This document shows positions 516-5,704 of a DNA stretch of 5,704 nt, one piece after another. This DNA comes from Magnetococcales bacterium (GTDB lineage Bacteria > Pseudomonadota > Magnetococcia > Magnetococcales > DC0425bin3). Within the stretch, counting starts at the first letter, position 1; every line of letters starts with the position of its first letter. Under the pieces are notes generated by a model. The model was not told where the DNA came from and did no database searches. It saw only the letters and a list, made by a program, of their open reading frames with translations. Where the stretch lies: positions 1 to 5,704 of the forward strand of contig JADGCJ010000193.1 of NCBI GenBank assembly GCA_015229045.1. The letters are read 5' to 3'. The position numbers were made by a program, and so were the translations under genes.

Positions 516-859
516 CCGCCACCGGATTGAGCGAACAGGATCTGGCAATGATGCAAGCCGTTTTCCGACAGATCCCGGCCATTCAGACCGTGATTCTGTT
601 CGGATCCCGGGCCAAAGGGAACCATCGCCCGCAATCCGATGTCGATCTGGCCCTGGTCGGGATCACCGACCCCTTGCAGGCGGAAGAGGTGGCCGAGACC
701 CTGGACCGGCTACCCATGCCGTACCGGTTTGATGTCAAGGCGTGGGATGCCATTCGCCACCCCGCATTGATGGAACATATCCGGCGGGTGGGAGTGGTCA
801 TCCACGGCCAGAACTTTTCCCCTGGTCCCCTGATATTAAAAATGGATGTTAAAATTTGA
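512..859 (+). CDS. mntA: MntA-like minimal nucleotidyltransferase antitoxin
   Basis: This 115-residue protein has the DNA polymerase beta-like nucleotidyltransferase core: hydrophobic strand VILFGSRAKG, Gly31-Ser32, ten residues, then Asp43-Val-Asp45. That is exactly the GSX10DXD signature, with a plausible third metal-binding carboxylate at Asp74 (RFDVKAW). In type VII systems MntA transfers AMP units from ATP to the tyrosine of the HEPN partner, neutralising it. The size is normal for minimal nucleotidyltransferases. Its ATG lies inside the last codons of the upstream toxin gene (ATGA overlap). The last 15 or so residues, after VVIHG, are encoded by AT-rich DNA and look unstructured, perhaps a lineage-specific tail. 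Its stop overlaps a possible TTG start of the downstream chemoreceptor. Catalytic motifs are seen; the antitoxin role is inferred from family and gene order. Confidence 0.9.
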   Translation: MTATGLSEQDLAMMQAVFRQIPAIQTVILFGSRAKGNHRPQSDVDLALVGITDPLQAEEVAETLDRLPMPYRFDVKAWDAIRHPALMEHIRRVGVVIHGQNFSPGPLILKMDVKI

Positions 860-3057
860 TCAAAACAATCATTCCACCACTGGCGGTCATTGTGGAGGCC
901 GTGTTCATGGCCTGGCTCGGCCCGGAGAGGTCGTGGACCGGGCTGGTTGCGGCGACCCTGACGGTCTGTGCGATTTTCGGGTTTCTGGCCTGGTGGATCG
1001 AACGCCCGAAGAAGACGAAGATTGAAAAAACGCCGACCGAGGATCCGGTACGACGCGCGGTTCACATCATCGGCATGCAGGCGGGCAATGCCTCGGCGCT
1101 CATCATGGAACTCATCCAGATGCGCAAATTTCTGGGCAAGGATGTCAATTCGCTGTTCAAGCTGGCCGAAGAGATCGATGTCAGCAACAACCGGCTGGCC
1201 CGGGAGGTGGAGGCCACACGGAATCATCTGGGACAGATTGCCACGAACATGGATGGATTGGAACAGTCTGCCCGGGACATTTCCAACGAGATCGACCGGA
1301 TGGCTTCGGAGTCGCGGGAGGCCGAGGGCAATTTGCACGGCATGGAGACGGCTGCGGCCAACATGGTGAATCATCTGCAACAGGTGGTGGAACAGCTGAA
1401 CCGTTCCACACAGGCCACGGAGCAGGTCGGCGATGCCACGGAACGGATGGTGGCCTCTTTTGGTGCGGTGAGCGCGCAGTGTCACGAGGCCAACCAGGCC
1501 ACGGCTGCGGCCAATCAGGCCACTGGCGCGTTTGGCCGGGTGCTTGACGAGCTGACCCACGCAGCCGAGGAGATCGGCGCAGTGGTGGATTTCATCCATG
1601 AGATCACGAACCAGACCAACATGCTGGCGCTCAACGCGGCCATCGAGGCCGCCGGGGCCGGAGAGGCGGGCAAGGGGTTCGCGGTGGTGGCAGGCGAGAT
1701 CAAGGCGCTGGCCAGACAGACCGGTCAGGCCACCGGGGACATTGTCAACCGGATCGAAGAGATCCGGGAACGAACCTCCGAGGCCTCCTCGGTGGCGGGT
1801 CAGCTTTTCGACTGGGTGGAGCGGCTGGACACGGTCAACCGGGAGATCGCCCAGGCCATTGACGACCAACGCGCCACCACGGCGCAGGTGGCCGAAAGCA
1901 TGGAACAGGTCGGATTGGCGATGGGGACCATCATGCAAAGTTCCCGCGAGCTGGAGGGGTTCAGTCACGCGGTGGCCGGGGAGGCGTCGCGCGGGGTGGG
2001 CAGCATGATGGAGATTGCCTCCCGGGCGTCACGGGTGGCGGCCACGGCCCTGGAGATGGAGCAAAAGACCCGCGAGGCGCGTCAGTTCGCAGACACGAGT
2101 CACGAATCGGCTGGTACGACCAATGAGCTGTCGCGGCAGGTGAAGGAGCGGGTGGAACACTCCTTGCGGATGACCCGTTTTCTGCATGGCACGGTCAACC
2201 AGTGTGGTGTGCTGTCGGAGATCGCCCGGGAGATCAACGATGGTTTTCACGATGCCTGGCTCACTTTTGGTGCGTTTACCGAGCCGTTCGACATGTACCG
2301 GTTCAAAAGCGACCTGCTGGCCCGGATGGGACAGTTGGAAAAGGCGATGTTCGGCAATGTCCGGTTGAAGGATGATGCCTTTGCCAACTGGCAGGCGAGT
2401 GAAACAGGCAAGTGGCTGGAGGCCAACCGGCAGACCGCCCTGGCGGAACATCCTTTGTATCGGGAGATGTTGCAGGAGTGTCAGGCCATGCATGAGAGTG
2501 CGACCCGTGCCATTGTCCGGTTGAATGCCGGGGAGAAGGAGGAGGTCGGCAGGCTGCTGCAAGAGGTTCATGCACACCGGAAGGGGATGTGTCAGGCCAT
2601 GGACGGGCTTTATCTGGTTCCCGGGGAGACGCCGTCCACGCCTGTGGATCTGGTCACCTGGTCGGATGGTTTGAAGATCGGGGTGCCGGTTGTCGATGAA
2701 GAACACCGGCAACTGTTCGTGCTGCTCAATGTGTTGTATCGCGCCATTCAGTCCTGTGCCGGCCACGAGGCCACGCATCGGGCCGCGCAGGAGCTTTTCG
2801 GGCATGCCGTCGGCCATTTTGCCACCGAGGAGCGGCTGATGGAACAGGCGAACGATCCTTCGTTGCCGGAGCATCGGGCCCAACACACCGCCTTCCGCAC
2901 CCAGGCCGAATCTTTAAGCCGCGCCCTGGAGTCCAAAAGCCACACCACCGTATTGGACCTGCTAAGCTATGTGAAAAATTGGTTTTTATTCCATGTTCCC
3001 AACTGGGATTTAAAGATGGGACGTCATCTGGCCGAAAAAACACAACGGCCTGCCTGA
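856..3057 (+). CDS. Methyl-accepting chemotaxis protein with CZB-like and C-terminal hemerythrin domains
   Basis: The 733-residue protein is a membrane-anchored chemoreceptor. Residues 5-21 and 29-47 form two hydrophobic helices separated by about seven residues, followed by basic PKKTKIEK, so there is no periplasmic sensor. Residues 100-470 are coiled-coil signalling region with the canonical hairpin tip near 249-285 (NQTNMLALNAAIEAAGAGE, then GKGFAVVAGEIKALA), which binds CheW and CheA. Residues 475-586 resemble a CZB domain (GKW at 518-520). Residues 598-728 are a hemerythrin with all seven diiron ligands: His617, His654, Glu658, His673, His677, His713, Asp718. Sensing is thus probably cytoplasmic, of oxygen, NO or redox, as in DcrH of Desulfovibrio. 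The TTG start (856) overlaps the mntA stop and preserves the two-helix hairpin. ATG 907 has a better ribosome site but loses the first helix. No chemotaxis partners are adjacent. Confidence 0.95.
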   Translation: MIKTIIPPLAVIVEAVFMAWLGPERSWTGLVAATLTVCAIFGFLAWWIERPKKTKIEKTPTEDPVRRAVHIIGMQAGNASALIMELIQMRKFLGKDVNSLFKLAEEIDVSNNRLAREVEATRNHLGQIATNMDGLEQSARDISNEIDRMASESREAEGNLHGMETAAANMVNHLQQVVEQLNRSTQATEQVGDATERMVASFGAVSAQCHEANQATAAANQATGAFGRVLDELTHAAEEIGAVVDFIHEITNQTNMLALNAAIEAAGAGEAGKGFAVVAGEIKALARQTGQATGDIVNRIEEIRERTSEASSVAGQLFDWVERLDTVNREIAQAIDDQRATTAQVAESMEQVGLAMGTIMQSSRELEGFSHAVAGEASRGVGSMMEIASRASRVAATALEMEQKTREARQFADTSHESAGTTNELSRQVKERVEHSLRMTRFLHGTVNQCGVLSEIAREINDGFHDAWLTFGAFTEPFDMYRFKSDLLARMGQLEKAMFGNVRLKDDAFANWQASETGKWLEANRQTALAEHPLYREMLQECQAMHESATRAIVRLNAGEKEEVGRLLQEVHAHRKGMCQAMDGLYLVPGETPSTPVDLVTWSDGLKIGVPVVDEEHRQLFVLLNVLYRAIQSCAGHEATHRAAQELFGHAVGHFATEERLMEQANDPSLPEHRAQHTAFRTQAESLSRALESKSHTTVLDLLSYVKNWFLFHVPNWDLKMGRHLAEKTQRPA
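894..898 (+). promoter_or_regulatory. Shine-Dalgarno GGAGG favouring an internal MCP start at 907
   Basis: GGAGG stands eight bases before the in-frame ATG at 907 and only two bases before the in-frame GTG at 901. This is the best ribosome-binding sequence near the chemoreceptor start. It competes with the TTG at 856, which has only GGA at 844-846, nine bases upstream. Use of 907 would remove the first of the two membrane helices. Confidence 0.4.
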
Positions 3058-3081
3058 TCGATCAAACCATTCAATCATTAC

Positions 3082-3102
3082 CCACCATCGAAAAAGTGGT
3101 GG
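3082..3102 (+). other. Small hairpin after the chemoreceptor gene
   Basis: CCACCA (3082-3087) and TGGTGG (3097-3102) form a six-base stem with a nine-base loop, 24 bases after the stop codon. No T run follows, so it is not a standard intrinsic terminator. It may stabilise the mRNA 3' end or be chance. Confidence 0.3.
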
Positions 3103-3129
3103 CGTGACCGTCCGGCAGGAGGGTCGTGA

Positions 3130-3389
3130 GTGGCGTCTGGCCAATCCGTTCACCTGCGTCCGGGAGTTTCGTCAGAGGGTGGGGTTTTTCCGGCCCTTTT
3201 CTCAGACGCCGTCGGTAGGGATTATTGGTGCCATCCGCTCTGTCAGGCGCTGCATTATCTGGCAAAAGGGAGTATGATCATGTCGAAGCGATGGTCACCA
3301 CTCCCGCCGAACATGCCGCCCTGACCAAACTTTTGGCCAATTGGCGTGCGGTAGTGGAGCAGACTAAGGGAGGGGGCCTGTTTGGTTGA
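3130..3389 (+). pseudogene. Probable decayed 3' end of an unidentified gene, frameshifted
   Basis: The 347-base gap after the chemoreceptor has no intact gene but reads like former coding sequence. The frame 3219-3389 ends in a protein-like C-terminus, including EYDHVEAMVTTPAEHAALTK and LLANWRAVVEQTKGGGLFG, before a TGA at 3387. An upstream frame (from GTG 3130) gives RDYWCHPLCQALHYLAKG and would join it by a single-base deletion near 3266-3272, in the A4G3 run. A third frame (GTG 3104 to TGA 3275) is also open for 57 residues. No ribosome site precedes either start convincingly. I do not recognise the family. Alternatives are a short real gene at 3291-3389 (32 residues) or a dispersed repeat that is open in several frames by composition. 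Confidence 0.35.
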
Positions 3390-3404: not shown

Positions 3405-3827
3405 ATGCCGAATTGGAAGTACGATCCTGGCGAGTGGCGGAAAAAGCACAAGTGGAAACAGGATAATGCTGGCTTTGAGTTCAATGGTCAGGAAGAGGTT
3501 GGGAAATGTCCAAATTCAATCACTCACGATCCCGCTCTTGCGGAACAATTGCTGAACCAAGGGGTGTGCTTCCCGATGGATGAAGCCCCCCCAAAAGAAA
3601 TCTATAATGTTCACCAAGGCGTGGTCTATCGGGCTGAACCGACGTTACCTGGAATATCATTTCATGGATTCCCTGAAAAAGAACAGAAAGCAAGAAGAGT
3701 TCCAACGGTGGTTCTGTGGGAATTGGCGCGCAGGGCGCAAACGGACGGTACGTTTCATCTTTACAGAAACTGGATGCGCGAGTACCTTCCCGAGGGATGG
3801 AAAATCGTCGCCAGGAAATTCCGTTAG
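3405..3827 (+). CDS. Uncharacterised 140-residue basic protein, first gene of the ImmA/IrrE-DUF499 operon
   Basis: I do not recognise a named domain. The N-terminus is strongly basic and aromatic (WKYDPGEWRKKHKWKQD, residues 4-20). A segment GKCPNSIT (33-40) precedes a short helix, ALAEQLLNQGV. Residues 67-89 look like a conserved beta-rich core (YNVHQGVVYRAEPT, then GISFHGFP), and the C-terminus is basic and amphipathic (YRNWMREYL, then KIVARKFR). There is no signal peptide or membrane helix, so it is probably cytoplasmic; the charge could suit nucleic-acid binding. The ATG has a good AGGAG site seven bases upstream. Its stop directly abuts the GTG that can start the metalloprotease, so the two are probably co-translated and may act together, for example as the protease's substrate or a small effector. 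That partnership is inference from spacing only. Confidence 0.8.
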   Translation: MPNWKYDPGEWRKKHKWKQDNAGFEFNGQEEVGKCPNSITHDPALAEQLLNQGVCFPMDEAPPKEIYNVHQGVVYRAEPTLPGISFHGFPEKEQKARRVPTVVLWELARRAQTDGTFHLYRNWMREYLPEGWKIVARKFR

Positions 3828-5306
3828 GTGCTTATGATTATGAATGCTCCGCATGATGAGATTTTCTCATTTCAATTCGATCCCGCCCCGATACCCACGG
3901 ATGGTATTGCCATGTTCTCGGGACACGGTTCTTTACGAATTCTGATTGAGAATGATCCCGTTTGGGGACAAGCTTCAGAATCCGATGGTCCCGGCATAGG
4001 AATTGACAGTTATTGGGATGCTCTTTTGGAGCATCTGGCTAGGGCGTGGCCCTTTCTACAGTCGGAAGAAGTCTATCCTCTGGGTTTCAATCCGGAATCC
4101 CCGGATAATTTTCTCAATGATTCACTGGCAAGTTTACCCTGGGGCAAGGCTCCTGATGATCAGGTTGCCCGTGATGAACAGGCCATCTTCACTTTCGTGA
4201 AGCGGCATGAATTGGCCTCTGGCATGCCCGACATCCATCTCCCGGCGATTTTCCTGATGCGTGAAGGAAATGAAATGCGTATCGTGTCCGAGACGCACGA
4301 TGTTCGCTTGTCGCTCAATTACGCCATGAAACGGTTGAATGAACTGGGGCAGACCATTGCTAAAGCCGTTGATCTCCGTTCTCCCAGGGGAAAAATCATT
4401 CTGGATGCATGGAATCAACGCAACGAGCCCTTGGAGCACGAACGTTTTCTTTCCATCGTGATGGGAATACGTCCTGAAAGGTTGCGAAGAATTGCTGCCA
4501 ACGACGACATTACGGTTATTTTCGGTCAACCATCTTTATCACACCCCACCCCCATGCAAATTGCCGCCCGCATGACGCATCATGGTCTCATGGATGAGGA
4601 GTTGCGGCTGATCATCGACAAGGTTTCAAAGCTCAGGATGACACAGGCTGACAAGAAACTGGTAAGGCTGCAAAAGGATGCATACCGAGTGATCGAGAGC
4701 CTGATCGCCGCGAAATCATATGATCAGGGCTACCAATTGGCGCAGTGGCTGCGGCGAAAACTCAAAATGAAGGACCAACATTCAGCCAATCCCGAAGAAC
4801 TGCTGCATTCCTGGGGAGTGGCCGTGGTCAATACGCAATGCTCAGAGGTGATTGATGCCATTGCCCGTTGGGACGGTGATCGGATCGGAATTCTGATCAA
4901 TAAAAGTGGAATGAGAGCCAGGACAGACTGGGGACGCCGCGCATCATTGTCGCACGAAATTGCCCATTTATTGGTTGATACTCAACATGCTCTGCCTTCG
5001 GTCGAGATCCTGGGTGGTCGCATGCCCCTTCATGTTGAACAGAGGGCGAATGCCTTTGCAGCTGAGTTTCTCCTGCCCCGCAGCTGTATCGATCAAGTCG
5101 TTCCTCAATCCCCCACGCCAAAGATGCTAGAGCCAATCATTAATAAACTCTCTGATTCCTTTTCCGTAGGTCAAATCCTCACAGCGCGGCAAATTGAAAA
5201 TCTTCTCATTGATCGCAAGCAGTTGGACCACCAAGTCAAAATATTTCTTGATCGCATAGCGGATCGATATGCAAGCAATAAATATTTAGATTGGCTGGCG
5301 ATATGA
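3828..5306 (+). CDS. ImmA/IrrE-family zinc metalloprotease with long N-terminal region
   Basis: The C-terminal half is an ImmA/IrrE (COG2856-type) metallopeptidase. The zinc motif HExxH is His376-Glu377-Ile-Ala-His380, inside ASLSHEIAHLLVD. The third ligand is probably Glu404 in EQRANAFAAEFLLPR, the usual ExxAxxFAAxLLxP signature. It is preceded by strands typical of the fold (DRIGILINKSG, 351-361). Residues 1 to about 265 are not an HTH. They contain a WDALLEHLARAWPFL segment (63-77) and seem a specific accessory region, making this protein (492 residues) longer than simple ImmA. Related enzymes cleave repressors (ImmA on ImmR, IrrE on DdrO), so regulated cleavage of a repressor or toxin partner is plausible. 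Possible starts are GTG 3828, ATG 3834 and ATG 3840; GTG abuts the previous stop, with AGGA at 3813-3816. The next gene begins one base after its stop. Confidence 0.92.
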   Translation: MLMIMNAPHDEIFSFQFDPAPIPTDGIAMFSGHGSLRILIENDPVWGQASESDGPGIGIDSYWDALLEHLARAWPFLQSEEVYPLGFNPESPDNFLNDSLASLPWGKAPDDQVARDEQAIFTFVKRHELASGMPDIHLPAIFLMREGNEMRIVSETHDVRLSLNYAMKRLNELGQTIAKAVDLRSPRGKIILDAWNQRNEPLEHERFLSIVMGIRPERLRRIAANDDITVIFGQPSLSHPTPMQIAARMTHHGLMDEELRLIIDKVSKLRMTQADKKLVRLQKDAYRVIESLIAAKSYDQGYQLAQWLRRKLKMKDQHSANPEELLHSWGVAVVNTQCSEVIDAIARWDGDRIGILINKSGMRARTDWGRRASLSHEIAHLLVDTQHALPSVEILGGRMPLHVEQRANAFAAEFLLPRSCIDQVVPQSPTPKMLEPIINKLSDSFSVGQILTARQIENLLIDRKQLDHQVKIFLDRIADRYASNKYLDWLAI

Positions 5307-5307
5307 C

Positions 5308-5704
5308 ATGACCGCCCGCACCCTGCGTCCCTGGTCCGAAATCGTTCCACTCCACCCCGACGTGGAGGCCGGGGCGTTGACCGAATCGGTCTTCGCCATC
5401 GACCTGGGGGCCATCGTCAGCGGCGATCCCAACACTCCGACGGTCAATCGCGATCCAGAGGCCTTCTTTCGCGCCACCTATCTCACTACTGATCTCGCCC
5501 GACTGCTCTCCGAGGTGCTTGCCGTACTGGCCGGAAATTCCGGCGTGGACCGGGTGCTCAAACTCCGCACCCCGTTCGGCGGCGGCAAGTCGTACACCCT
5601 GGCCAGTCTGCTCCATGCCGTCCGCAAACGTTCCGCCCTAGACCTCGTTCCCGAGGCCAAGGGTTTTGCCGATCCCGGCCCGGTGGCGGTGTCCGTCTTC
5701 GATG
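5308..5704 (+). CDS. DUF499-type P-loop ATPase, N-terminal part (runs off the window)
   Basis: An open frame of 132 residues begins at ATG 5308 and continues past the window end. The N-terminus (TLRPWSEIVPLHPDVEAG, residues 4-21) and a segment EAFFRATYLTTDLARLL (51-67) match the layout of DUF499 ATPases. The phosphate-binding loop is TPFGGGKSYTLASLLH with Gly91-Gly-Gly-Lys94-Ser95, the short form usual in that family (typically FGGGKT). Such proteins are large, usually around 1,000 residues, and are often encoded beside DUF1156 DNA methylases in anti-phage islands. An ATP-driven role in a defence complex is therefore likely but not proven here. The ATG follows the metalloprotease stop by one base and lacks a strong ribosome site, implying translational coupling. 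Its GC-rich codons contrast with the two preceding genes. Confidence 0.85.
   Translation, partial: MTARTLRPWSEIVPLHPDVEAGALTESVFAIDLGAIVSGDPNTPTVNRDPEAFFRATYLTTDLARLLSEVLAVLAGNSGVDRVLKLRTPFGGGKSYTLASLLHAVRKRSALDLVPEAKGFADPGPVAVSVFD

Follow-up and report, generated by a model that had tools for sequence, protein, structure and literature searches.

The DNA analysed here (the window) is a stretch of 5,704 nucleotides at the start of contig JADGCJ010000193.1 (assembly GCA_015229045.1) of a Magnetococcales bacterium. In its right-hand part a small toxin-like gene is followed at once by a gene for an M78 metalloprotease and then by the beginning of a DUF499 ATPase gene. The first two form a conserved pair, probably a toxin-antitoxin module, which here lies between parts of a DUF1156/DUF499 (Hma) defence operon:

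3225..3389, forward strand: remnant of hmaB (DUF1156 methylase), its final ~50 codons, located by tblastn
3405..3827, forward strand: small toxin-like gene, 140 amino acids, with motifs YDPGExRxKH, GKCP and HGFP
3828..5306, forward strand: immunity-like/M78 fusion gene, 492 amino acids, GTG start
3855..4358, forward strand: predicted N-terminal CdiI-like domain of the 492-residue protein, residues 10-177
4698..5258, forward strand: M78 (CapP/IrrE-like) metalloprotease domain of the same protein, residues 291-477
4953..4967, forward strand: its HExxH zinc motif, HEIAH, residues 376-380
5308..>5704, forward strand: 5' part of the DUF499/HmaC ATPase gene, 132 amino acids, interrupted by the window end

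The three open reading frames (ORFs; 140, 492 and, incomplete, 132 amino acids) are separated by 0 and 1 base, as a preliminary description of this DNA had it, and the HExxH motif with Glu377 and the Walker lysine, Lys94, lie where it placed them. The 492-residue gene has alternative in-frame ATG codons at 3834 and 3840, and its GTG start is not certain. The small protein, called basic in that description, is mildly so (isoelectric point 8.9; 21 lysines and arginines against 18 aspartates and glutamates). The label ImmA/IrrE (M78) protease also holds, with PF06114 at 23.7 bits, above its cut-off of 22, as does that of DUF499 ATPase: the 132 residues match the PADLOC models HmaC (4.1e-22) and DUF499 (5.4e-06). 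The NCBIfam model DUF499_antiphage gave 1.1e-07, far below its cut-off with only 132 residues in the window, and Pfam gave no match on this stretch.

An alignment of 36 M78-family sequences was used to scan one genome per species with two patterns, one of them the HExxH region; 377 stretches matched, 186 were confirmed and the best 80 loci were retained. The toxin beside these M78 genes was sought in six-frame translations by means of a small-protein profile. In 64 of the 80 loci the match spans 95 or more of 130 positions within a single frame, on the same strand and just upstream of the M78 gene, with -1 to 257 nt between the profile ends. The two genes are co-directional and mostly overlap or almost touch, and the surroundings of the pair vary between loci. 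Ten further loci hold a toxin fragment or broken copy (L015 among them is merely cut by the contig end), five have no toxin match (L029, L035, L044, L046 and L060), and L055 lies at a contig edge. The record titles of the full pairs include Magnetococcales, Chromatiaceae, Pseudomonas, Myxococcota, Planctomycetota, Chlorobiota, Hydrogenedentota, Acidimicrobiia and Fimbriimonadaceae. The conserved unit consists of two genes, the toxin and its M78 partner, and not of the three that had been read as a single system, HmaC following the pair in few loci.

Two annotated plasmid records carry the pair with an overlap of 4 nt, one by VapC-Phd genes and the other near MazEF; there the toxin is annotated as 'hypothetical protein' and its partner as 'ImmA/IrrE family metallo-endopeptidase'. 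Plasmid matches comprise one record for the window toxin, four for the M78 protein and three for the toxin of L030. The window toxin matched none of 50,697 phage records, in which the M78 query found only two partial matches, to Acinetobacter phage and within the M78 part, and no match was confirmed in viral contigs. The pair is real and conserved, and has no name in the libraries searched; the matches listed by our literature search, as far as their accessible text goes, include no account of it.

Two loci show other toxin-antitoxin-like genes next to the pair or to an M78 gene. In L002 (8624-9506) a HepT-like gene (PF01934, 3.3e-28), preceded by an ORF that resembles MNT by eye, lies directly upstream of the pair, making two toxin-antitoxin-like pairs in a row. 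In L060 (9340-11365) a RelE-family toxin gene (PF06296, 4.8e-50) immediately precedes an M78 gene lacking the small toxin; the initial stretch of this M78 frame appears HigA-like by eye, and Pfam has no match there.

The reverse search, anchored on the small protein (E ≤ 1e-3), found matches in 3 of 369 genomes in the class of genome G002, 13 of 48 in the class of G001 and 13 of 194 in the family of G005; the groups contain the seed genome, fragments and the distant family B (below) are counted, and in large groups scoring covered no more than 11 or 22 candidates per genome. The distribution is patchy. Twenty-one toxin-anchored loci, several of them identical to loci of the M78-anchored set, matched over at least 95 of 130 positions, and 17 have a full partner downstream. 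In L100 the partner has an in-frame internal loss that takes the HExxH motif, in L091 only its N-terminal domain is present, and L103 and L108 lie at a contig end, L103 showing the partner's start in a 68-residue frame. An intact toxin clearly without a partner was seen in none of the 21, three of which (L103, L107 and L108) have a stop codon inside the toxin match; shorter broken copies without a partner do exist (L094/L172, L113 and L116).

What kind of protein is the first gene product? The window protein has no match in Pfam, PADLOC or NCBIfam, and 58 homologues show no Pfam family under E 0.009 and no NCBIfam family under 0.03. At E ≤ 1e-3 the query matches 28 proteins, its own included. 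The nearest relatives with a name are Magnetococcales: identity to P0002-P0006, three of them named as such, is 58-81%. Its structure is predicted with a local distance difference test score (pLDDT) of 90, and the structural neighbours of the model, weak ones, come from contact-dependent inhibition (CDI) and toxin-antitoxin complexes, the nearest being 5t87 (weak). No link to solved structures was found by sequence. A profile comparison by hhalign with 15 BrnT and 14 HigB sequences, motif-picked from 25 loci each, gave no link either, and the control comparison of BrnT with HigB likewise gave none, so this test is without power. Residues H15, H87, Y75, K14 and C35 are near-invariant. The protein is a free ORF in the window and not the C-terminus of a CdiA delivery protein; elsewhere the matches sit in ORFs of 45-244 amino acids, except in L013 (541 amino acids, the M78 frame). 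Judged from the model, the small protein may be a BECR/RelE-type ribonuclease (RNase)-like toxin, with presumed RNase activity and toxicity. The effector role suggested for it in the preliminary description is supported in this way, by fold only.

The 492-residue partner, which has at least 167 homologues at E ≤ 1e-3 and is 39-75% identical to named Magnetococcales and Magnetococcus proteins, has two domains (pLDDT 91). The C-terminal M78 assignment is also backed by the predicted fold and by sequence comparison with solved structures (IrrE 8.8e-4, PprI 0.0027, a helix-turn-helix (HTH)-M78 protein 0.034, CapP 0.88), and PADLOC RmrA models cover only about residues 260-440 of the protein (E down to 1.2e-11). 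For the N-terminal domain no link to solved structures was found by sequence, and the nearest immunity folds to its model are 5ffp and 4ntq; the immunity chain of 5t87 itself is not among the best 50 structural matches listed for the partner. No Pfam HTH family was found in the window protein at E ≤ 1, and a set of 73 N-terminal stretches, each about 206 residues long, gave none at E ≤ 0.5 either. Stand-alone N-domain proteins were likewise not seen at E ≤ 1e-3 among 3133 candidates of roughly 110-360 amino acids. On its model, the N-terminal region resembles an immunity domain that would act on the small protein, and not a regulator of the ATPase. M78 proteins of ~627 amino acids with an additional N-terminal stretch of ~130 residues occur as P0097 and in L035 (9497-11383), where no small toxin homologue lies upstream.

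Which of the two domains would act as the antitoxin can be approached through loci that lack the M78 domain or its motif. In L171 (genome G418, of the class of G001) a 145-residue toxin ORF is followed at once by a 220-residue partner that ends after the N-domain, and the remainder of the M78 gene was not found in its 7.6-kb contig; direct repeats of 134 nt, 90% alike, flank the pair (3027-3160 and 4314-4447), and a misassembly is possible. The second case is family B (L101/L084, L085, L097, L098 and L112), related by hhalign to the window type both through its toxins (97.3%, E 1.9e-11, 97 columns) and through its partners (98.3%, E 2.6e-14, 390 columns). None of its five partners has HExxH, and toxin-like frames of 153-229 amino acids are present in four of the five loci, L098 having a 63-residue partial one. 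In L100, finally, the HExxH segment is deleted in frame next to a full toxin. Because of these three cases, the N-domain alone would seem sufficient to hold the toxin, as the data suggest. Mirror trees revealed no special link between toxin and N-domain, and that test is neutral.

The same loci bear on two other assignments of roles. Were the partner a proteolytic antitoxin, its M78 domain would degrade the toxin and the N-domain merely capture it, and the retention of HExxH by all but one of the 23 toxin-anchored partners above 300 bits, and by 81 of 81 members of an M78 set partly selected by that motif, would be as expected. This idea fits poorly with family B, L171 and L100, where toxins persist without the motif or the whole domain, and we regard it as unlikely. 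Alternatively, toxicity might lie with the M78 protease, which the small protein would inhibit or be cleaved by, a division of roles once suggested for COG2856-Xre pairs; the paper concerned (PMC2701414) names COG2856 as either a predicted toxin or a third component. Family B, having no HExxH, speaks against this, as do up to 14 of the 80 loci in which the M78 gene stands beside a lost or broken small gene, an asymmetry biased by the choice of the set through M78. An M78 protein that survives beside lost small genes fits an antitoxin role better, with the same bias, and a toxic protease appears very improbable.

The DUF1156/DUF499 setting proposed for the window is borne out. In L001 and L006, from one metagenome-assembled genome, the order is HmaB, toxin, M78, HmaC/DUF499, HmaC being cut by the contig end in L001. 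The HmaB proteins (1222 and 1204 amino acids) both match PADLOC HmaB, and that of L001 has the Pfam domains DprA (PF02481) and DUF1156 (PF06634). The DUF499 start in the window is 83% identical to the HmaC of L001 (137 amino acids), and the hmaB remnant is 78-80% identical to HmaB of L001 and L006 over 54 columns (E 7e-20 and 3e-19). DNA similarity of the window to L001, L004 and L006 starts at 3241, and the sequence before the remnant is not HmaB. The DUF1156 N6-methyltransferase is represented in the window only by the ~50-codon remnant, a further copy downstream being possible; either most of hmaB was lost by deletion or rearrangement, or the contig is wrongly joined at this point. We also observed that the N-terminal stretch of HmaB matches ShosA/PsyrA models in both loci (L001:397-4065, L006:344-3958).

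Elsewhere the company of the pair differs. In L004 hmaB is down to its 3' end and hmaC to its 5' end, on either side of a shortened toxin and a full-length M78 gene; L011 (the same DNA as L082) has the order HmaB-like, toxin, M78, PLD/SNF2 helicase; and in two DISARM loci the pair lies between drmA and drmMI (L040) or, with other ORFs intervening, between drmMI and drmA-drmB (L069). If the three genes of the window were one system, the M78 protease would cleave the 140-residue protein or the ATPase and thereby regulate DUF499/DUF1156 restriction, as their contiguity and the gene order in L001 and L006 would allow. Yet when proteins of L001, L006 and L011 served as BLAST queries, no more than five of the 80 loci gave an HmaB or HmaC match (L001, L004, L006, L011 and L071). 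With the L001/L006 proteins, HmaC was seen to follow the pair in L001, L006 and the window and, as a remnant, in L004, but nowhere else; cases on short contigs or with diverged homologues could have escaped both counts. In L004, moreover, the M78 gene has stayed full length beside mere remnants, and we think a single three-gene system quite improbable.

A defence-island reading in general found no support: PADLOC on 114 ORFs near and 110 far from 29 pairs with long flanks revealed no visible defence enrichment beside the pair, no family having more than two members in either set and DISARM and BREX matches occurring in both. This test is rough, as ORFs were called mechanically, antisense ones included, and families rather than members were reported. 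Of the defence-operon proposal, then, the setting stands and the unit does not: the toxin-M78 module appears autonomous and is sometimes placed in large defence operons, Hma or DISARM. In the window its G+C content is 49-50% against 65% in the DUF499 gene, with similar steps in L001, L006 and L011 and weak or none in the DISARM loci; the steps fit entry of the pair into an already existing operon.

The pair has parallels in several known systems. With CDI and polymorphic toxin-immunity pairs it shares a predicted toxin fold nearest to 5t87 (weak), a predicted immunity fold nearest to 5ffp and 4ntq, and the toxin gene in first place; it differs in the lack of a delivery protein and in the fusion of the immunity domain to a protease, and no sequence similarity to the window proteins was detected. 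COG2856 proteases have been tied to RelE and PIN toxins via an Xre repressor, and a three-component system proposed (PMC2701414). Such Xre-M78 systems, including RosmerTA with its RmrA, likewise have an M78 domain adjoining a toxin that is RelE-like, here by predicted fold, whereas the window protein has no Pfam HTH, a CdiI-like domain standing in its place, and the window toxin belongs to no Pfam or NCBIfam family. The pair can be seen as a variant of this M78-associated theme in which an immunity-like domain has replaced the Xre part. PprI and CapP respond to single-stranded DNA (ssDNA) by cleaving a separate HTH repressor (PMC10904395); the target in IrrE/PprI-DdrO and in CapP-CapH of CBASS is such a repressor, in contrast to the small toxin-like neighbour here. 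Hma systems resemble the locus through the hmaB and hmaC homologues of L001 and L006 and through the hmaC start and hmaB remnant of the window, whose methylase gene is otherwise mostly gone. A 2026 survey of DUF499 systems (PMC12839542) applies the term 'DUF499-centred BREX-related' to Hma and gives a list of backup effectors; its main text contains none of the words IrrE, M78, metallopeptidase and zincin.

We therefore favour, at a probability of roughly 0.64, a two-gene toxin-antitoxin (toxin-immunity) module that would sometimes serve as a fail-safe effector in Hma or DISARM operons. The CdiI-like domain would bind the toxin, mask its active site and block its activity. By analogy with its relatives CapP and IrrE/PprI, which ssDNA switches on, the M78 domain might be a trigger or quality-control module that senses phage replication or DNA damage, upon which it would inactivate or remove the immunity part, and the freed RNase-like toxin would arrest the cell. 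A bolder version holds that a CDI-type immunity domain and an ssDNA-sensing protease in one molecule define a new, widespread toxin-antitoxin class, in which the protease destroys its own immunity domain upon phage attack or DNA damage; the cassette would have entered Hma and DISARM operons repeatedly to act as a fail-safe, and family B would be a second branch, which has lost the motif of the protease and has a different trigger. This we consider possible but doubtful. Should the toxin and immunity-protease assignment be right, both genes could be named across several phyla, contact-dependent toxins would be linked to intracellular toxin-antitoxin systems, and the additional genes inside some Hma and DISARM loci would be explained; the pair would also offer a testable case of a protease possibly deciding when an abortive-infection toxin is released.

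The left part of the window holds three further features. Positions 1-45 form a hairpin, rich in A+T and with an outer stem of 16 bp, that resembles a terminator or element end; the folding energy of bases 1-60 is -18 kcal/mol (z -5.5). At 102-859 the genes of an HI0074-type nucleotidyltransferase substrate-binding protein (PF08780, 4e-37; TIGR01987 HI0074) and of an MNT nucleotidyltransferase (Polbeta, 4.3e-13) overlap by 4 nt. A hepT-mntA pair had been reported nearby; this one is related, and the label is approximate, the HepT and MntA models reaching 12.2 and 41.7 bits against a cut-off of 60. At 856-3057 lies the gene for a chemoreceptor-like protein with a methyl-accepting chemotaxis protein (MCP) signalling domain, a weak CZB match and a C-terminal hemerythrin domain.
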